Source: Pseudomonadota bacterium
GTDB lineage: Bacteria; Desulfobacterota; Binatia; Binatales; Binataceae
Length of the DNA: 64,000 bases
Assembly: GCA_021325355.1 (NCBI GenBank)
Contig: JAJPHI010000014.1
Span: 127,129 to 191,128 of the forward strand
Reading direction: 5' to 3'
Position numbers and translations under genes: made by a program
Shown: positions 23,664 to 32,670 of the stretch, one piece after another
How the letters are laid out: every line of letters begins with the position of its first letter
Position numbering within the stretch: position 1 is the stretch's first letter
Notes under the pieces: model-generated
Seen by the model: only the letters and a program-made list of their open reading frames with translations
Database searches by the model: none
Told to the model about the DNA's origin: nothing

Positions 23664-25826
23664 TTGCCAGTCGTGGAGCAGCGACGATCCAGCCGATCGG
23701 ATCCGGTCAAGGTGGCGATAATCGGCGGGGGCTGCGCGGCGATGGCCGCGGCGTTCGAGCTGAGCCGCCCGATCCATCGCGGACGCTATGCGATTACGGT
23801 GTACCAGCTCGGATGGCGTCTCGGGGGCAAGGGCGCATCCGGCCGCGGTCTCGCGGGACGGATCGAGGAGCACGGTCTCCATCTCTGGATGGGCTTTTAC
23901 GAAAATGCCTTTCGCCTGATGCGCGAATGCTACGCCGAGTTGGCGCGCGACCCCCGTCGATACCGCATTGCCGATTGGCGCGATGCGTTTGTGGCCGAGC
24001 CGTTCATCGGCGTCGGGGCGGCGCGCGGGCGGCGGAACTGGCTCGCCTGCTTTCCGCCGGCCGACGGCCTGCCGGGCGATCCGCTAAGGGACTATAACCC
24101 GTTCACCCTGACCAGTTATTTGATTCGCACCGCGGTCCTGATGCAGACGCTGGTGGCGAGCGCGTTGCCCTTGAGCGACGCTGTCGCCCCCGTGGAGAGC
24201 GCCGCGGCGGAGCTTTCAAGCGCCGAGATCGAAGGAATCGTCAAGCGCTATCTCAAATTTGGTCTGATGAGCGGGCTTGCCGGCGCCGTGGGGGCATTGC
24301 GCCTGTTCGAGCTGGGCCTCAGGCGGCTGGCGCCGCAAAGGCTCGGCGCGCTGCTGCCGCTGCTCGAGAGCCTCGGCGTCACGCTTCGCGCGCAGCTCGA
24401 GCAGGCGGTCGCGCGCGACCCTGATCTGCAGGAAGTTTGGGAAGTCATCGATCTGCTGCTCGCCTTTCAGCGCGGCGCCCTGCGCTTCAATCTTTTGAAC
24501 GATCCGCGCGGTTTCGATTGTCTGAACGGTTACGATACTCGCGAATGGTTGCGGCTCAACGGCGCGGCGCCGGCCTCGGTCAACTCGGACCTGATGCGCG
24601 GTCTCTACGATCTGGCGATGGCCTACGAGGACGGGGATCCCGCACGGCCGCGCATGGCCGCCGGGCTCGGGCTGCGCGCGTGCCTGCGGATGTTCTTTAC
24701 CTACCGGGGCGCAATGATGTGGAAAATGAAGGCCGGAATGGGCGACGTGGTGTTCGCGCCGTTCTACCAGGTTTTGCGCCGACGCGGCGTGGCCTTCAAA
24801 TTCTTTCATCGTCTGACCAATGTACGGCTCGGCAGGGACAGCTCATCCTGCGCGCCGCACGTCGCCGCCCTCGAGTTTGATCTCCAGGCCCGGGTCAGGG
24901 ACGGCGAGTATCAGCCCCTGGTGGAGATTGCCGGACTGCCGTGCTGGCCCGCCCGGCCGGACTATGCGCAACTCCTCGATGGCGAGCGCGCGCGACGCGA
25001 AGGATGGGAGTTCGAATCGCACTGGGAAAGCCGCCGTGCCCGCCGGCTCAGGCTCCGCGTGGGTCGGGATTTTGACCTGGTAATATTGGCGATTGGCCTC
25101 GGCGCCGTGCCCCATGTCTGCCGTGAGATCGTCGCCACGAATCAACGATGGGCAGCGATGGTGAGAAAGGTCAAAACGGTGCCGACGATGGCCTTTCAAC
25201 TGTGGTTGCGCAAGGACATGGAAGAGCTCGGATGGGATCACCTGCCGACCACGATGTCGGGATTTCCCAAGCCTTTTGATACGTGGGCCGATATGCGTCA
25301 TCTGCTGGACGAGGAAGCGTGGCCGAAACGGCCGCGTTCGCTGCTATATTTCTGTGGCGCGATGCCCGAAACCAACGGATTGAGGAAAGCGAAGGCAGCG
25401 GCCTACGTGCGGGCTGCCCGGCGGCTCGTCAAAACCGCAGCCGCCGATTGGATCACCGCCAACCTCGGACTCATCCTGCCCGGCAGCCTGGATCGCCATC
25501 GTCAATTCCGCTGGGAACTGCTGGTTGATCCTGCCACGCCCGATGGTATCGGCCCGCGCCCGAGTCGGGAGCTTCTGGATACTCAGTTCTGGACCGCCAA
25601 TATCAATCCGTCCGATCGCTATGTCCTGTCGATTCCCGGCAGCGTGGAATATCGCATCTCACCGCTCGATTATGATTATGACAACCTGACGATTGCCGGT
25701 GATTGGACCGAATGCGGTCTGAATCTCGGATGTGTGGAAGCGGCGGTGATGTCGGGACGGCTGGCGGCCCATGCGATCGCCCAGTCTCCGGCGCTGGAGG
25801 ACATTATCGGCTATGACCATCCATAG
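23664..25826 (+). CDS. FAD-dependent oxidoreductase of the phytoene desaturase / amine oxidase superfamily
   Basis: Large flavoprotein of 720 residues. The dinucleotide-binding motif VAIIGGGCAAMAAAFEL is at about 17-33, followed by YQLGWRLGGKGASGRG and EEHGLHLWMGFYENAFRLM, a pattern shared with plant-type phytoene desaturase and hydroxysqualene-type enzymes. The C-terminal FAD contact is YDNLTIAGDWTECGLNLGCVE. It is about 200 residues longer than a usual desaturase; the extra part is in the middle (about 140-300). The TTG start at 23664 follows a G-rich ribosome site. It overlaps the next gene by 14 bases, and a polyprenyl diphosphate synthase comes after that, so an isoprenoid or carotenoid-like substrate is inferred. 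Confidence 0.82.
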   Translation: MPVVEQRRSSRSDPVKVAIIGGGCAAMAAAFELSRPIHRGRYAITVYQLGWRLGGKGASGRGLAGRIEEHGLHLWMGFYENAFRLMRECYAELARDPRRYRIADWRDAFVAEPFIGVGAARGRRNWLACFPPADGLPGDPLRDYNPFTLTSYLIRTAVLMQTLVASALPLSDAVAPVESAAAELSSAEIEGIVKRYLKFGLMSGLAGAVGALRLFELGLRRLAPQRLGALLPLLESLGVTLRAQLEQAVARDPDLQEVWEVIDLLLAFQRGALRFNLLNDPRGFDCLNGYDTREWLRLNGAAPASVNSDLMRGLYDLAMAYEDGDPARPRMAAGLGLRACLRMFFTYRGAMMWKMKAGMGDVVFAPFYQVLRRRGVAFKFFHRLTNVRLGRDSSSCAPHVAALEFDLQARVRDGEYQPLVEIAGLPCWPARPDYAQLLDGERARREGWEFESHWESRRARRLRLRVGRDFDLVILAIGLGAVPHVCREIVATNQRWAAMVRKVKTVPTMAFQLWLRKDMEELGWDHLPTTMSGFPKPFDTWADMRHLLDEEAWPKRPRSLLYFCGAMPETNGLRKAKAAAYVRAARRLVKTAAADWITANLGLILPGSLDRHRQFRWELLVDPATPDGIGPRPSRELLDTQFWTANINPSDRYVLSIPGSVEYRISPLDYDYDNLTIAGDWTECGLNLGCVEAAVMSGRLAAHAIAQSPALEDIIGYDHP

Positions 25827-26535
25827 AGCGAACGCCGGCAGCGGGGCGAACGGGCGCGTACGCCGCGCTATGCCTGAGCGTGCCGCGCCGCAACGTCAAT
25901 GGCCGCGAGCGCTGCGCGCGGCCGATTCGTGGCAGCCGCCCACCCGGATGGTCAACCCGTCGGCTCACCTGAAATCATCGGCGACTAAGGCGAAAGGCGA
26001 TGGCGTCGGGCTCGGTTACCAGGTGCTCGAAAAGCACATGCGGCGCGCTAGCTCAATTGCGCCAAAATCCAAGGCCGTGAGAAAAGCTGAAGCGGGCTCG
26101 AGTATTGATCTGCAGGACCTCGTCGAGCGCCTGGCACGGGGGCTTGCCGAAGCGGCGCCGGTATTCAGTGAATTAATCAATCGGCTTGGGCGAGTCGCTC
26201 TTGGCGACGATGGCCGCAGTGGAGGGACGTCCGGCCTGGTCAATGCCAATTCACGGGTGGCAATCGAAGTCAACTCGCCGAGACCGGTCAGGGTCAATCT
26301 AGAGTTGCGCCCCGAGGCCGAGCGGCGGCCGCTCAAAGTATATGGCCTCTATGCGCCCGGTGCCGGCAAACCGACGATTCGCGCGGTTAAGTTCGTGCCG
26401 AGCGTTAACGGAACCGCCGCCGCGCTGCGCATCAGGCTCCCGCGCCTGCGCGGCGGAGCAGCCTACAGCGGGCTGCTGGTCGATCCGCGCAGCGGCGAGC
26501 CGATGGGTATCGTGAGCGTGCGCGCCGCGCGTTAA
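25813..26535 (+). CDS. Unrecognised protein between FAD oxidoreductase and prenyl synthase
   Basis: I do not recognise this 240-residue protein. ATG at 25813 overlaps the FAD oxidoreductase stop by 14 bases, so expression is coupled. The first 90 residues are basic, Arg- and Pro-rich and probably disordered. A helical stretch at about 90-125 (DLQDLVERLARGLAEAAPVF) follows. The last 110 residues alternate hydrophobic and polar residues like a beta-sandwich (RVAIEVNSPRPVRVNLELR, GAAYSGLLVDPRSGEPMG). No signal peptide, metal motif or catalytic site is seen. It may be a scaffold or partner for the neighbouring isoprenoid enzymes, which is a guess from position. Confidence 0.7.
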   Translation: MTIHRANAGSGANGRVRRAMPERAAPQRQWPRALRAADSWQPPTRMVNPSAHLKSSATKAKGDGVGLGYQVLEKHMRRASSIAPKSKAVRKAEAGSSIDLQDLVERLARGLAEAAPVFSELINRLGRVALGDDGRSGGTSGLVNANSRVAIEVNSPRPVRVNLELRPEAERRPLKVYGLYAPGAGKPTIRAVKFVPSVNGTAAALRIRLPRLRGGAAYSGLLVDPRSGEPMGIVSVRAAR

Positions 26536-26553
26536 CAGTCGTCAGGTCATCGC

Positions 26554-27585
26554 ATGCGAAACTCAGGCTTCGCACTGGTCGAGCGGACCTTGCGCCGTTA
26601 CGGCGCGCGAACGCGCGCGGCGATGCGACCCTACCTGCGCGCCGGCGAACCACGCCGTTTTCTATATGATCTGGTGAGTGACTATCCGCTGCGTCTCGGC
26701 AAGATGATGCGCCCGAGTTTGTGCCTTGCCGCGGCGCGTTCCCTGGGCGCTTCGGTCGAGCAGGCGCTGCCGACCGCGGTCGCGATCGAGCTTCTCCATA
26801 ATGCCCTGTTGATTCACGACGATATCGAGGATCAGAGCGAAATGCGGCGCGGCAAACCGTCGCTCAATGCGCTGCACGGCGTGCCGCTCGCGCTGAATGC
26901 CGGCGATCTTCTGCTCGCGCTCAGCATGCGTCCCTTGATCGAGAACCGGCGGCGCCTCGGCGGCGAACTGGCGGCGCGAATTTTTGACGACGCGCTGCGC
27001 ACGGCTTACGAATCGGCCGAAGGGCAGGCGCTCGAATTGGGCTGGCGCGACCGCAACAGTCATGAGCCCACGCCCGCCGACTATCTCACGATGGTCCTCA
27101 AGAAGACCTGCTGGCTGGCGACCATCTTCCCCCTCCGCGCGGGAGCCTTGATCGGCAGCGGCGGCGGGTTCGATCTGGAGCCCCTGATCAGGCTCGGCTT
27201 CTTTCTCGGGGCGGCGTTTCAAATCAAGGATGATCTGCTCAACCTGCAGCCGGGCAAGCATTACGGCAAAGAACTTAACGGCGATCTGTTCGAAGGCAAG
27301 CGCACGCTTATTATCATCCATTTGCTGGAGCAGGCGGAGACCATCGAGCGCCGGGAACTGATAGATATTCTGACGCGCGAGCGCGCCCAGCGAACCGTGA
27401 GCGACGTGCGGCGCATGATCCGCTTAATCGACAAATACGGCAGCCGCGAGTATGCCTATTCAGTCGCCCAGGACCTGGCCGGAGCCGCGATGCACGAGTT
27501 TCAGCGCGCCTATAATGGATTACCGCGTTCCGACGATCTGAGATTTATCGAGTTGATGGCGAGCTGGGTGATAATGCGCGACTAG
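26554..27585 (+). CDS. Trans-polyprenyl diphosphate synthase (GGPP synthase-like)
   Basis: Enzyme of 343 residues that extends allyl diphosphates with isopentenyl diphosphate. The first Asp-rich motif is D89-D90-I-E-D93 (HDDIEDQ) and the second D226-D227-L-L-N230 (IKDDLLN), both needed for Mg2+ and diphosphate. The residue five places before the first motif is Ala and the one before that is not aromatic, which favours a C20 or longer product; this is an inference. It starts 18 bases after the unrecognised gene and is the third gene of the FAD oxidoreductase operon, so it probably makes the precursor for that enzyme. Confidence 0.9.
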   Translation: MRNSGFALVERTLRRYGARTRAAMRPYLRAGEPRRFLYDLVSDYPLRLGKMMRPSLCLAAARSLGASVEQALPTAVAIELLHNALLIHDDIEDQSEMRRGKPSLNALHGVPLALNAGDLLLALSMRPLIENRRRLGGELAARIFDDALRTAYESAEGQALELGWRDRNSHEPTPADYLTMVLKKTCWLATIFPLRAGALIGSGGGFDLEPLIRLGFFLGAAFQIKDDLLNLQPGKHYGKELNGDLFEGKRTLIIIHLLEQAETIERRELIDILTRERAQRTVSDVRRMIRLIDKYGSREYAYSVAQDLAGAAMHEFQRAYNGLPRSDDLRFIELMASWVIMRD

Positions 27586-27592
27586 GTATGAC

Positions 27593-28570
27593 TCAGCAAT
27601 AGCCAATCGAGCGATACCAGCGGACAGTGTCGTCCAGCGTCGCCGAGAGTGGTCGCAGCTTGATCCCCAGATCGATCTGCGACGGCGACGGAGTCATGAA
27701 GCCGTGCAGATAGGTGAGCATCGCGATCAATGCGGGCAGCGGCGGGGCGAGACCAAGGCGCGTCGCGGCTGCTTCGGTGAAGTAAGTGGCGAGGATACCG
27801 GCGGCGGTCGGCGTGACCAGGGGCGGCGGCTTGGCGCCGCCGATCTCGCAGATCCATCGGAACAGCATATCGTTGGAAATATTGTGGCCGACAAGTGCCA
27901 GCGGCGCGGGCGGCAGGTCGGCGTTGAGCAGCCCAATCAGGTTAAGGGCAACATCCCGCACGTCGATCACGTTCAGCATCTGATCCGTCGAAGCGGGCAA
28001 TTTACCGTTCAAGAGAGCGGGCACGAAGCAGCGGGCCGGCGCTTTGCAATCCCAAGGTCCGAGACAGCCGGTAAGGTTGACTATCGCGAGGTCCTGCCGG
28101 CGGCGCCTCGCCGCGATCAGGAGCTGCTCGATGCGTGTTTTGACCGCGAAGTAGGGATGCAACCACCGTATCACCTGGCTAAGAACGCGATCGAGTCCGT
28201 AGCGCAGTTGTCCCAAGGTGACGAAGGAGCTGATGTAAATCAGAGGAATCGACTGACGCTGCGCGGCGCGGAGCAGGGCGTGGGTGCGGCGCGTGGCCGC
28301 CTCGACCAGGCGCGCAGTATCGGCCGATGACGACGAGAGGGCAAGCGGATAGGGTGCCGCCGCGTCGATGACCAGGTCATGACCGCGCATCCAGCGGTCA
28401 AGCGGGGCCGTCGGAATATCGCCGATGAGGCGGCGGATCGCGAGATTCTTCAGATTGAACGCGCGGCGCCGTGAGCGATTGACGCCGGTCACCTGATGAC
28501 CATGATCGAGCAACGCGCGCGCGATTGCATTGCCAACATGACCGCTGACGCCGAGCACCAGAACCTTCAT
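27593..28570 (-). CDS. NAD(P)-dependent epimerase/dehydratase (extended SDR)
   Basis: Protein of 325 residues with an N-terminal Rossmann fold, MKVLVLGVSGHVGNAIARAL, carrying the GxxGxxG nucleotide site (residues 7-13). DLVIDAAAPYP and LIYISSFVTLG follow the usual SDR order, but the classical YxxxK catalytic pair is not obvious; AVKTRIEQLL stands near its place, preceded by HPYF. That could mean a reductase-like or atypical member. It is tail to tail with the prenyl synthase (seven bases apart) and divergent from the acetoacetate decarboxylase-like gene. Extended SDRs of this kind act on sugars, flavonoids or sterol-like substrates; the substrate is unknown. Confidence 0.8.
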   Translation of the reverse strand: MKVLVLGVSGHVGNAIARALLDHGHQVTGVNRSRRRAFNLKNLAIRRLIGDIPTAPLDRWMRGHDLVIDAAAPYPLALSSSSADTARLVEAATRRTHALLRAAQRQSIPLIYISSFVTLGQLRYGLDRVLSQVIRWLHPYFAVKTRIEQLLIAARRRRQDLAIVNLTGCLGPWDCKAPARCFVPALLNGKLPASTDQMLNVIDVRDVALNLIGLLNADLPPAPLALVGHNISNDMLFRWICEIGGAKPPPLVTPTAAGILATYFTEAAATRLGLAPPLPALIAMLTYLHGFMTPSPSQIDLGIKLRPLSATLDDTVRWYRSIGYC

Positions 28571-28650: not shown

Positions 28651-29532
28651 ATGAAGTTCATTCAATACGGTCCAGTGATGACGGCCGAACCCCCGGTGGT
28701 TTGTCGAGGAGCGGATTTATTCGTCTTCGCGCTACCGGCGGAGCTGCGACGTCTGCGCGATTTCTGCCATTCACTTTTCAACGAGCCCACCCACGGCGCG
28801 GTCAAATGCGATCCGCTGGGTCCGTGGATCGTGATGATCGTCGGCGCGATCGACCGTGTGAGCGGCGCCAACAAGGACAAGCCGGCGGTGCGCGAAAAGA
28901 ATGTGCTGGTGCATGTTCCGGTGTTTGTCAGGACCGCACAGGAGGACTTCCCGGCGGTATTCTCGCCTTACGTATGGGTCGATAATCCGAATTCACTGAC
29001 CAGCGGACGCGAGGTCTTCGGCTACGCCAAGACCATGGGGCGGATAACGATCGACCATCCGGCCGACCCGCTGTGTTTCGAGCTCGCGGTCTTCGGCGGC
29101 AATCTCAACACCGACATCTGGGACTGGCGCGAGAGCTTTTTGCGTATCGAACGCGGGAAGGCCGGCGCGGCGCCGCTGTTCAGTATCATTGATCTGGTGG
29201 AGGGCGGGAACGAAGTTGGCGATCTGCTGTCAAAATGGGCTGATACCGGCGTCAGGGAACTTTACTATAAGCAATTCCGCAGTATCGACGACGGCGACCC
29301 GAGCCGCCCGGGCAAAGCCTGCCTGACCGAGATTGCGGCGGCCGAATACGTGGTTTTCGGCGAGCCGAAGATCACTCCGCTCGGCCATCAGTACAAGATT
29401 CATCTCGACAACCTTGGCAGCCATCCGATCCGGACCGAGCTTGGCCTGAAAGCCGAGAGCGTATCGTGGGCGTATCGCTTGAAGACGAATTTTCGGCTCG
29501 AGCATGGCTGCGTTCTGTGGACAAGCCGTTAG
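28651..29532 (+). CDS. Acetoacetate decarboxylase family protein
   Basis: Protein of 293 residues with the acetoacetate decarboxylase fold. GREVFGYAKTMGRI holds Lys127 at the place of the Schiff-base lysine of the clostridial enzyme, but the next residue is Thr128 where that enzyme has a second lysine. Family members with changed pockets catalyse aldol-dehydration or hydrolysis rather than decarboxylation, so the function is open. YVWVDNPNSLTSGRE upstream and FGGNLNTDIWDW downstream belong to the conserved core. It is divergent from the epimerase gene with 80 bases between them and may share a promoter region with it. Confidence 0.8.
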   Translation: MKFIQYGPVMTAEPPVVCRGADLFVFALPAELRRLRDFCHSLFNEPTHGAVKCDPLGPWIVMIVGAIDRVSGANKDKPAVREKNVLVHVPVFVRTAQEDFPAVFSPYVWVDNPNSLTSGREVFGYAKTMGRITIDHPADPLCFELAVFGGNLNTDIWDWRESFLRIERGKAGAAPLFSIIDLVEGGNEVGDLLSKWADTGVRELYYKQFRSIDDGDPSRPGKACLTEIAAAEYVVFGEPKITPLGHQYKIHLDNLGSHPIRTELGLKAESVSWAYRLKTNFRLEHGCVLWTSR

Positions 29533-29574: not shown

Positions 29575-32500
29575 ATGATCGATGACACGGGCGTTGGCTG
29601 CCGCAGTTGCGGTGCTATTAATCTGTTAGGCGTCGAGCGCTGTGCCGGATGCGGCAAGGCGCTGACGGCCGATTGCCCGCGATGCCATAATGCGACCGCG
29701 CCCGATGCGCGGTTTTGCAGTCAGTGCGGAGTTCCTCTTCATGACCATGCCGATGAGAGTGACGGTGAACGTCGGCAGCTCACCGTCTTGTTCTGCGATA
29801 TGGTCGGCTCGACCGAGATGGCCGCGCGGCTCGAGGACGAGGACTATCGAGAGATCGTGCGCCTCTACCATGGCGTGGTCGTCGATGCCGTCAATGATTA
29901 CAAAGGATACGTCGCGCAATATCTCGGCGACGGCATTGTCGCTTACTTCGGCTGGCCGAAAGCCTCGGGCGATGATGCTGAGCGCGCGGTCCGCGCCGCA
30001 CTCGAGATTCTCGCGGGACTCGAACGAGTCAATCGCAACCTGCGCGAGGATCGGCGGCTCGCCGCGCGCGTCGGGATTCATACCGGAAGAGCCATTCTGA
30101 GCGAGATCGGCGCGGGCGCCCGCCGCGAGACGACGGCGCTTGGCGAAACGCCGAACGTGGCGGCGCGCGCGCAGGCCCTGGCCGCGGTCGGCTCGGTGGT
30201 GATCACGGAAGCCACCAACAACCTTATCGGCGGCCGGTTCGTCGTCGAACCTCTCGGTCCGTTCGCGATCAAGGGGCTTACGCGGCCGATGCCGCTTTAT
30301 CGCGTGTTGCAACTGACGGGCGTACGGAACCGGCTGCACCTGCAGGACCGCGTCAGTCCATTTATCGGCCGTCATGCCGAGCTGACCACGCTGATCGAAC
30401 GCTGGGACCAGGCTTCACGCGGCGCCGGACAGGTGATCGTCGTGCGGGGCGAGCCGGGGATTGGCAAATCGCGCCTGGTGCGGCAATTCGCCGAAGGCCT
30501 CAGGGCGACGCCGCATACCTGGATCGAGGGTTATTGTTCGCCGTTTTCGAGCAGTACGCCGTTTGCGCCGATAATCGACGGGCTCACGCGCGCCTTCCTG
30601 CAGGCCGACGAGAAAGCGTCGATAGGGCTGGGACGTATCCAGCGGGCGCTGGCCGCCGCTGCCCCGGAACTCGAAGGGGCGCTGCCGGTCATCGCCGAGA
30701 TGCTCAACGTTCCACCCAGTGCCGGCTACACGCCGCTGCTGTCGTCACCCGAGCAAAAACGCGCGCGCTTTATGGACGCGATTGTTGACTGGATCCTGGC
30801 GCTGGCCCGGCTCCAGCCCTTCGTCGCGGTACTCGAAGATACGCAATGGGCGGATCCTTCGACGCTCGAACTGGGGGAGCGTCTGGTCCGACTAAGTCAA
30901 AACTCTGCGCTGATGCTGATCTATACCGCGCGCCCGGAGTTCAACGATGCCGGGATAGTCGCGGATCGCGCGCTGCGTCTCGACCTGGGAAGGCTCAGCC
31001 CCGAGGAAACCGTGGCGTTGGCCCGGGCCTCTGCAACCAATGGAGGGGAGGAGACGGTCGGCCTATTCGCCGAACGCAGCGGCGGTATTCCGCTGTTTGT
31101 CGAAGAGCTGGCGCGGATGATGGCCGCCCGGGGTGGCGAGCCGTCACGTTCGGGCGAGATTCCCGCGACCCTGGCCGACCTGCTGATGGCGCGCCTCGAC
31201 GGCAGTGGTAGCGCCAAGGAGATCGCGCAGATAGCTTCGATCTTCGGCCGGGAATTCACCTATCCGCTGCTGCGAGCGGTCAGTGCGCAACCCGACGATC
31301 AGCTAACCAGCCGACTGCAGCAACTGCTCGACGCCGATTTGATTCAGGCCCGCGGCGATTTCCCGCAGACGCGCTACCTGTTCAAACACGCTCTGATTCG
31401 CGACGTCGCCTACGAGTCGCTGCTGCGCGTCCGTCGACGCGCTCTGCATAACGCGGCCGCGCAGGCGCTCACCGACAAGTCGGATCCGGCAACGCTTGCC
31501 TACCATCATGCGGGTGCCGGTAATCTCGAGGCGGCAAGCCGCGCATGGCAGGCTGCCGGCGACGCCGCGGCGCGGCGCGGGTCGTTGACGGAAGCGTCGA
31601 CCTTGTATGCGAGGGCCATCGCCGCCATCAGCGACGCTCCGCGGTCCGATGCTTCGGACCAGCTCGAAATGTCGCTTCAGATGTCGCAGGCGTCCATGCT
31701 CTCGGCGCTCAAGGGCCTGGCCTCGCCCGAGGCGGAGAAAGCCTACAATCGCGTGCGTGAGCTCGGCAGCCGTGTGCGACCGAATCGCTCGATGGCTTTG
31801 CTCGGTTTATGGCAGATGCACGCGACGCGCGGCGAAGGTCGCGCGGCGCAGACCGTGGCTGAGCAACGCCTGAAGATCGCCGAGCATGAAGGCAATGCCA
31901 CCGCGCTCTGCTGGTCCCATCTCGCCCTCGGTATGACCCTGTTCCATCGCGGTGGCCTGCGGCAGAGCCTCGATCATCTGCGCAAGGCCGTCGACTACTA
32001 TGGGGGTCACGACCGCGCTGCGGCGTTCGACGCTGGTCCGTTGGCGATGGCGTATCTCGCCGTGGCGTTTGTACTGATCGGCGAAACCGCCCAGGCGCGG
32101 GAGCAGTCAGCGGCTTCGCTGCGCGCGGCGCGGGAGCTCGAATCACCCTCGACAATCGCCTACTGCATGTTGAACAAGGCGGCAATGCATTGGTTCCTGC
32201 AGGAGCAGGGCGAGGTTCGGCAGACGGCACAGGAAGGCATGGAGTTTGCCCGCGCCCATGGGCTCGAACAACTGGCCTGCGGCCTCGAGGTTTACGCCGG
32301 ATGGGCGACGACGGCGAACGAAGAATCCGCCGATGCGCCTGAGCGCGTACGCCGCGCCATCGCCGGCTGGCTCGCCAACGGCCAGCGCCTGCCTCACGCC
32401 TGGTACCTCTCGATCCTCGCTTCGGTACAGGCGCGCGTGGGTGAAATCCCCGCCGCGCTGGCGACGCTCGACGAGGCGGCGGCGGCGGTCGGCGAGATGC

Positions 32501-32670
32501 TGCTAGAGGAGACGATTGTGCTCTGTACGCGTGCGGAAACGCTTCGACTGGCAGGAGATCTTCACCGCGCGGAATGCGCGTGGCTCGAAACGATCGCTTC
32601 GGCGAAGCGCAACGATGCGCATCTTTACGTTGAACGCGCCAGAATGGCACTCGCTGAGAAGGCGGCTTGA
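29575..32670 (+). CDS. Class III adenylate/guanylate cyclase fused to AAA ATPase and TPR domains
   Basis: Regulatory protein of 1031 residues. It begins with paired zinc ribbons (CRSCGAINLL, CAGCG, CPRCH, CSQCG; residues 9-52), then a class III cyclase domain (about 66-245) with metal Asp75 in LFCDMVGST and Asp119 in YLGDGIVAYFG. A STAND-type ATPase follows with Walker A GEPGIGKS at 292-299 and the sequence LQPFVAVLEDTQWADPS as Walker B. The C-terminal third is TPR-like helical repeats. Such proteins are thought to make a cyclic nucleotide in response to a bound partner. Target specificity (cAMP or cGMP) is not clear. The next gene overlaps its stop. Confidence 0.88.
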   Translation: MIDDTGVGCRSCGAINLLGVERCAGCGKALTADCPRCHNATAPDARFCSQCGVPLHDHADESDGERRQLTVLFCDMVGSTEMAARLEDEDYREIVRLYHGVVVDAVNDYKGYVAQYLGDGIVAYFGWPKASGDDAERAVRAALEILAGLERVNRNLREDRRLAARVGIHTGRAILSEIGAGARRETTALGETPNVAARAQALAAVGSVVITEATNNLIGGRFVVEPLGPFAIKGLTRPMPLYRVLQLTGVRNRLHLQDRVSPFIGRHAELTTLIERWDQASRGAGQVIVVRGEPGIGKSRLVRQFAEGLRATPHTWIEGYCSPFSSSTPFAPIIDGLTRAFLQADEKASIGLGRIQRALAAAAPELEGALPVIAEMLNVPPSAGYTPLLSSPEQKRARFMDAIVDWILALARLQPFVAVLEDTQWADPSTLELGERLVRLSQNSALMLIYTARPEFNDAGIVADRALRLDLGRLSPEETVALARASATNGGEETVGLFAERSGGIPLFVEELARMMAARGGEPSRSGEIPATLADLLMARLDGSGSAKEIAQIASIFGREFTYPLLRAVSAQPDDQLTSRLQQLLDADLIQARGDFPQTRYLFKHALIRDVAYESLLRVRRRALHNAAAQALTDKSDPATLAYHHAGAGNLEAASRAWQAAGDAAARRGSLTEASTLYARAIAAISDAPRSDASDQLEMSLQMSQASMLSALKGLASPEAEKAYNRVRELGSRVRPNRSMALLGLWQMHATRGEGRAAQTVAEQRLKIAEHEGNATALCWSHLALGMTLFHRGGLRQSLDHLRKAVDYYGGHDRAAAFDAGPLAMAYLAVAFVLIGETAQAREQSAASLRAARELESPSTIAYCMLNKAAMHWFLQEQGEVRQTAQEGMEFARAHGLEQLACGLEVYAGWATTANEESADAPERVRRAIAGWLANGQRLPHAWYLSILASVQARVGEIPAALATLDEAAAAVGEMLLEETIVLCTRAETLRLAGDLHRAECAWLETIASAKRNDAHLYVERARMALAEKAA

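Follow-up and report, generated by a model that had tools for sequence, protein, structure and literature searches.

Three adjacent genes in the 64,000-nucleotide stretch analysed here (the window) raise the question of whether a flavoprotein, a small middle protein and a prenyl synthase form one biosynthetic unit, and what that unit would make. On the plus strand, a FAD-dependent, desaturase-like oxidoreductase of 720 aa with a TTG start (23664..25826) is followed by the middle protein of 240 aa (25813..26535) and by a short-chain, GGPP-type prenyl diphosphate synthase of 343 aa (26554..27585). The spacing given in an earlier note on this DNA, a 14-base overlap (25813-25826) and an 18-base gap (26536-26553), is exact to the base, as are the gene coordinates. 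A possible alternative in-frame start of the flavoprotein is the GTG at 23673, given that the protein's homologues begin near residues 6-14. The ATG of the middle gene at 25813 is backed by homologues; a longer frame of 254 aa opens at 25771. The two neighbours named in that note were located as well: a NAD-dependent epimerase or 3β-HSD-like reductase, distant from HpnA and conserved as a neighbour (27593..28570, minus strand), and an acetoacetate-decarboxylase-like (ADC-like) protein of 293 aa (28651..29532, plus strand). Further downstream lies a class III adenylate/guanylate cyclase-AAA_16-TPR protein of 1031 aa (29575..32670, plus strand). An Rfam scan found no RNA families, and scans for promoters and terminators gave counts of promoter-like and terminator-like elements at about shuffle level.

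The trio is conserved in other genomes, and its linkage is not due to chance, as it is kept across phyla. Gene order was scored in 49 loci from Proteobacteria, Myxococcota, Acidobacteria, Cyanobacteria and Gemmatimonadota, some of them duplicates; 46 have flavoprotein, middle gene and synthase in this order on one strand, while the remaining three retain the middle-synthase pair intact but place it before the flavoprotein. In a 148-genome sample drawn from the same class, 23 of the 28 flavoprotein carriers also encode the middle protein, versus one of the 120 non-carriers (23/5/1/119, Fisher p = 4e-21), and the cluster-type synthase behaves likewise (22/6/1/119, p = 9e-20), both sets of counts being inflated by shared ancestry. 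Some of the exceptions are due to contigs that stop within the cluster. The unit is larger than the three genes originally proposed: the ADC-like gene is usually a core member too, often located behind the synthase and encoding two ADC domains in tandem, and the epimerase and cyclase/AAA/TPR genes are frequent members across loci.

The flavoprotein belongs to the amine-oxidase/NAD_binding_8 superfamily, scoring above the Pfam cut-offs of NAD_binding_8 (PF13450) and Amino_oxidase (PF01593) and carrying a dinucleotide-binding N-terminus and a C-terminal FAD motif. Its motifs comprise the FAD motif GGGCAA..., WRLGGK and the C-terminal GDWT, of which GGG, WRLGGK and GDWT are invariant among relatives, and it ends in the residues GYDHP. 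Although it was first described as unusually long, 720 aa is normal for a family of about 690-790 aa. This family comprises at least 563 confirmed bacterial loci, and the plasmid records examined annotate its members merely as 'FAD-dependent oxidoreductase' or 'NAD(P)-binding protein'. The C-terminal tail tracks the synthase: flavoproteins ending in [GA][YF]DHP are accompanied by it in 61 of 65 cases, the other four lying at or near contig ends, versus just 2 of 43 tail-less flavoproteins with a synthase within 4 kb.

Membership of the synthase among short-chain prenyl diphosphate synthases is evident from its profile match (Pfam polyprenyl_synt, 171 bits) and from both Asp-rich motifs, DDIED and DDLLN. 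Across 72 sequences, alanine at position -5 (68/72) and leucine at -8 (65/72) suggest a product of C20 to C25. The nearest solved relative is the T. thermophilus GGPP synthase 1wmw, and both Asp-rich motifs and the small residue at -5 are shared with this enzyme and with archaeal IdsA (NF040698). In contrast to GGPP synthases, the cluster enzyme stays below every NCBIfam equivalog cut-off, its SARM ends in N (DDLLN), and in the class sampled it is almost confined to flavoprotein genomes. An assignment as family 2 encapsulin cargo polyprenyl transferase was rejected (NF041169, 171 bits versus a cut-off of 450).

The ADC-like protein of the window exceeds the PF06314 cut-off (33.9 versus 29.8 bits) and has a single domain, whereas the usual form of this protein is double, with two domains in tandem. 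Its presumed Schiff-base lysine, K127, is conserved without exception in 10 diverse ADC proteins of the single-domain type; nearly all first tandem domains have this lysine, and most second domains have lost it. K127 lies in the motif GRExxGxxK and aligns with the first lysine of the GFPKK stretch of 4zbo and 6eej. In the additional C-terminal parts of long tandem proteins, Pfam matched ADC alone. Outside the window's clade, fusions of the domain to the flavoprotein exist in several outgroup lineages. The AlphaFold model of one such fusion, L144 (mean pLDDT 56, six sequences), is interpretable for the ADC domain only, and there the ADC fold is recovered (Foldseek E = 7e-12), an observation on the L144 domain and not on the window protein. 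The cluster proteins resemble the PF06314 family, which includes the SbADC-type aldolase-dehydratases (4zbo, 5upb) and MppR, in profile score, in the lysine and, for the fused relative, in fold. They differ from it by being very diverged, often in tandem with a degenerate second domain and, in some lineages, fused to the flavoprotein. Solved relatives include enzymes beyond classical decarboxylation, namely MppR and Swit_4259.

The middle protein, presented at the outset as belonging to no known family, indeed matched none in Pfam or NCBIfam profile searches. It has a conserved N-terminal Arg/Pro motif (R15..R18P..R23..P26.R28), a predicted helix hairpin (56-129) and a predicted Ig/FN3-like β domain (149-238); fold searches gave hits too poor for an assignment (best Foldseek E 0.025, VIA-align Z ≤ 3.7). 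Based on two features, its predicted shape and the gene order, it is probably an adaptor without catalytic activity that links synthase and flavoprotein, perhaps by way of the latter's GYDHP tail. Of the neighbours, the epimerase-like protein resembles HpnA/SdmB-type NAD-dependent reductases and aligns with HpnA over its full length, but reaches only 130 bits versus a cut-off of 368, whereas the true HpnA, encoded elsewhere in the genome, scores 445 bits. A regulatory role in the cluster is likely for the cyclase/AAA/TPR protein. Its cyclase domain matches the PycC models of PADLOC, a match to the generic class III cyclase type. Beyond such cyclase hits PADLOC gave nothing, and on that scan a defence system seems unlikely; a Pycsar system would require an effector paired with PycC.

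Whether the genes form a C20-isoprenoid biosynthetic cluster built around the ADC-like protein and the flavoprotein is, in our judgement, evenly balanced. According to this reading, the synthase would make geranylgeranyl diphosphate, perhaps a C25 chain. The ADC-like enzyme may condense or decarboxylate the GGPP-derived C20 chain via a Schiff base, the flavoprotein may oxidise, desaturate or isomerise it, and the SDR-type epimerase could add a further reduction or epimerisation, the order of steps being a guess. The middle protein would bridge synthase and flavoprotein, and the cyclase/AAA/TPR protein would control the cluster, whose product is probably a lipid or terpene-like molecule. Against this reading, no terpene cyclase, UbiA-type or other GGPP-using prenyltransferase turned up among the conserved neighbours, which leaves the reaction following the synthase without an assigned enzyme. 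A more specific proposal is tentative, and we would sooner doubt it than accept it: a new type of isoprenoid pathway, widespread and dispersed by horizontal transfer, that would do without terpene cyclase and squalene/phytoene synthase. In it, the ADC-like Schiff-base enzyme and the flavoprotein would act on a C20 diphosphate, complexed by a new adaptor family and under cyclic-nucleotide control.

Among the alternatives, the flavoprotein could be a second hydroxysqualene dehydroxylase or a carotenoid desaturase that acts on squalene- or phytoene-type substrates from elsewhere in the genome. Its best curated matches are HpnE (TIGR03467), the top one, and the plant-type phytoene and zeta-carotene desaturases (TIGR02731 and TIGR02732), and phytoene desaturase 5mog is the sole solved relative found by profile; with these enzymes it shares the FAD-binding amine-oxidase/desaturase architecture at both ends. 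Yet the scores are far below the cut-offs (51.8 versus 283 bits for HpnE, 27 and 28 versus 569 and 622 bits for the desaturases), the matches mostly cover the FAD-binding N-terminus, and the 720 aa compare with about 430-450 aa, leaving some 300 additional central residues. A separate hopanoid operon on contig 17 of the same genome encodes HpnC and HpnD next to a true HpnE of 414 bits, a gene context that the flavoprotein lacks, and some genomes with the cluster have no HpnC or HpnD. The flavoprotein was accordingly assigned neither to HpnE nor to the carotenoid desaturases, and no known family with a defined substrate clearly includes it. The missing squalene or phytoene synthase, which the earlier note stressed, is a feature of the locus but not of the genome, which has two such genes in the hopanoid operon; local absence alone proves nothing because squalene-type precursors are made elsewhere. 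Three cluster-carrying genomes (G065, G066 and G068, 95-100% complete) contain no PF00494 genes, so the product of a squalene/phytoene synthase is not the required substrate there. An association of the cluster with these synthases across the 148 genomes was rejected as weak (24/28 versus 83/120, p = 0.10). Taken together, we judge a second HpnE or desaturase improbable.

A role of flavoprotein and ADC as a general lipid-modifying pair, acting for example on long β-keto or unsaturated acyl chains, is possible but on the unlikely side. One clade would then have added the synthase in a subsidiary capacity (for example to supply a prenyl anchor or regulatory ligand), and the main product would be non-terpenoid. 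In Shewanella, Janthinobacterium, Catenovulum and others, distant flavoproteins are paired with or fused to ADC where a synthase is absent; such cases speak against the C20 reading, as the core reaction need not use a C20 isoprenoid. Moreover, a FadL-type outer-membrane transporter adjoins the pair in Azospirillum. For a mere side role, however, the conservation is strong, as nearly every locus of the window's clade has synthase and middle protein, in order. Somewhat less probable than such a pair is a functionally mixed neighbourhood, in which the trio forms one unit and ADC, epimerase and cyclase are passengers. Each of the three is absent near the trio in a sizeable share of loci, and the window epimerase lies on the opposite strand, but some absences are contig ends, fusions join ADC to the flavoprotein, and ADC follows the synthase in many phyla.

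For the C20-isoprenoid reading, the original proposal of a candidate isoprenoid pathway holds in that a conserved isoprenoid-type unit exists around a flavoprotein outside families of defined substrate, while its membership, the argument from missing precursors and the length had to be corrected. A limited search of titles and abstracts of the open-licence literature found no description of the cluster, and the unit is apparently undescribed. Ordinary cluster finders may miss clusters that lack a terpene cyclase or PKS/NRPS. Cultured organisms suited for testing include Archangium, Novosphingobium sediminis, Sulfitobacter mediterraneus and Methylotetracoccus oryzae. Several hundred bacterial loci encode the flavoprotein family, and if the cluster makes a C20 isoprenoid, this would point to an unrecognised bacterial lipid class in myxobacteria, sphingomonads, roseobacters, methanotrophs and picocyanobacteria.

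Our analysis shows a conserved gene unit of a C20-type prenyl diphosphate synthase, a Schiff-base-capable protein related to acetoacetate decarboxylase (ADC) and a desaturase-like flavoprotein. In the window, the flavoprotein gene (23664-25826; Pfam NAD_binding_8 and Amino_oxidase), the gene of a middle protein with no Pfam match (25813-26535) and the synthase gene (26554-27585; polyprenyl_synt) are open reading frames on the + strand, with an overlap of 14 bases between the first two and a gap of 18 bases between the last two, reproducing exactly what the earlier note had claimed. Translation of the flavoprotein may begin at a TTG or, nine bases further and in the same frame, at a GTG. By Pfam, the neighbors of the trio are an NAD-dependent epimerase and a member of the ADC family that scores above its cut-off; the latter is single-domain, and the epimerase, on the opposite strand, sits between the ADC gene and the synthase.

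The search for the trio in other genomes, which the earlier note had proposed, found it conserved. Among 49 loci showing a flavoprotein with a [GA][YF]DHP tail, middle protein and synthase together, 46 have the three genes arranged flavoprotein-middle-synthase on a single strand, counts being slightly inflated by genomes present twice (e.g., L043/L074, L044/L082, L047/L075, L050/L088, L055/L079). The three exceptions (L037, L049, L100) have the middle-synthase pair ahead of the flavoprotein, again with all three genes on one strand. The flavoprotein occurs in 28 of 148 same-class genomes, and accompanies the middle protein in 23 of 24 genomes and the cluster-type synthase (over 300 bits) in 22 of 23 (Fisher p 4e-21 and 9e-20, respectively, shared ancestry ignored). 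The one genome in which both partners were seen without the flavoprotein, G044, has them adjoining near the start of contig C281. Two complete, diverged cluster copies are found in G051 (contigs C119 and C369), possibly a mixed bin given a contamination estimate of 6%. At least 563 flavoprotein relatives were confirmed in public genomes, of which the best 80 were retained; they derive from alpha-, beta-, and gammaproteobacteria, Myxococcota, Acidobacteria, Cyanobacteria, Gemmatimonadota, Actinobacteria, and others. A search limited to openly licensed literature found no published description of the cluster.

A tree built from 108 flavoproteins places every one of the 50 that have a detected middle protein under a single 66-tip node (support 0.85), nearly all members of which end in [GA][YF]DHP. 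A synthase lies within 4 kb of 61 of the 65 tailed flavoproteins, the remaining four being at or near contig ends, and of 2 of the 43 lacking the tail. The tail could be a docking peptide. Mycobacterial relatives (L113-L143, Mycobacterium and relatives) carry a different conserved C-terminal ending, RGFYLP-like, and their synthase gene, on the opposite strand, lies at a distance of about 5.5 kb. There, the flavoprotein gene immediately follows a cyclase/AAA/TPR gene, and a protein of 480-550 residues with no Pfam or NCBIfam family lies between flavoprotein and synthase (e.g., L128:3627-5273).

The synthase carries the motifs DDIED and DDLLN, has T. thermophilus GGPP synthase (1wmw) as its closest solved relative and scores below every NCBIfam equivalog cut-off. 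At the first motif, position -5 is alanine in 68 and position -8 leucine in 65 of 72 cluster synthases, which by the established rules for the family suggests a product of C20 to C25.

The ADC-like protein is a member of the gene unit. Most class relatives encode, downstream of the synthase, a 740-820-residue protein of two ADC-like halves. Outside the tailed clade, the ADC domain is fused N-terminally to the flavoprotein (L052, L121, L135, L140, L142, L144, L145) or its gene adjoins the flavoprotein gene on plasmids of Azospirillum and Catenovulum. One fusion was modelled: the prediction is poor as a whole, but solved ADC structures match its N-terminal domain (E 7e-12). The lysine of GRExxGxxK is invariant in 10 diverse single-domain ADC-like proteins; it aligns with GFPKK of solved family members, at the first of the two lysines, and is mostly missing from the second halves of tandem proteins. 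Tandem proteins such as L034:8072-10432 and L103:13960-17895 keep it in the first half and lose it in the second; some have an additional C-terminal stretch of several hundred residues with no family. On one Azospirillum plasmid (L063:8827-15525), an ADC gene and two copies of the flavoprotein gene lie together with a gene for a FadL-type outer-membrane transporter; this combination suggests that the synthase-free branch may handle a hydrophobic substrate.

Common to forty-odd middle-protein homologues are an N-terminus rich in Arg and Pro, an amphipathic helix carrying V..AYrVieE.IrQG and a second helix, usually followed by a C-terminal beta domain. This domain is absent from the shortened proteins of two picocyanobacterial clusters (L087 and L096; Synechococcus sp. 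BO 8801 and Aphanothece). The predicted model, a helix hairpin with a confident beta domain (pLDDT over 90), has no significant structural match. Lacking any evident catalytic pattern, the middle protein is most simply read as an adaptor. We propose that synthase, ADC-like protein and flavoprotein would act on one C20 chain, with the middle protein serving as adaptor and the cyclase/AAA/TPR protein as a putative regulator.

Against curated families, the flavoprotein best matches the hydroxysqualene dehydroxylase HpnE, at 52 bits versus a cut-off of 283. It is not, however, a missing HpnE, since another contig of the same genome, C17 (L057:5499-14783), holds a complete hopanoid operon with FPP synthase, squalene-hopene cyclase, HpnC, HpnD, HpnA (445 bits), and its own HpnE (414 bits). 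Both genes of the squalene/phytoene synthase family (PF00494) in this genome lie inside that operon, so that no dedicated phytoene synthase was found in it. Moreover, three genomes 95-100% complete (G065, G066, G068) contain flavoprotein, middle protein and synthase with no PF00494 gene, which is likewise absent from a Granulosicoccus (L071) and a Pseudomonadales (L100) MAG, as far as these two are complete. Consequently, apart from a small caveat for genome gaps, squalene or phytoene is not a required substrate there. Complete carotenoid pathways have been claimed for Binatota (PMC8262859). Given the confinement of the PF00494 genes of the window genome to its hopanoid operon, this claim merits comparison with HpnC/HpnD/HpnE and the flavoprotein family if the host, as is probable, belongs to Binatia.
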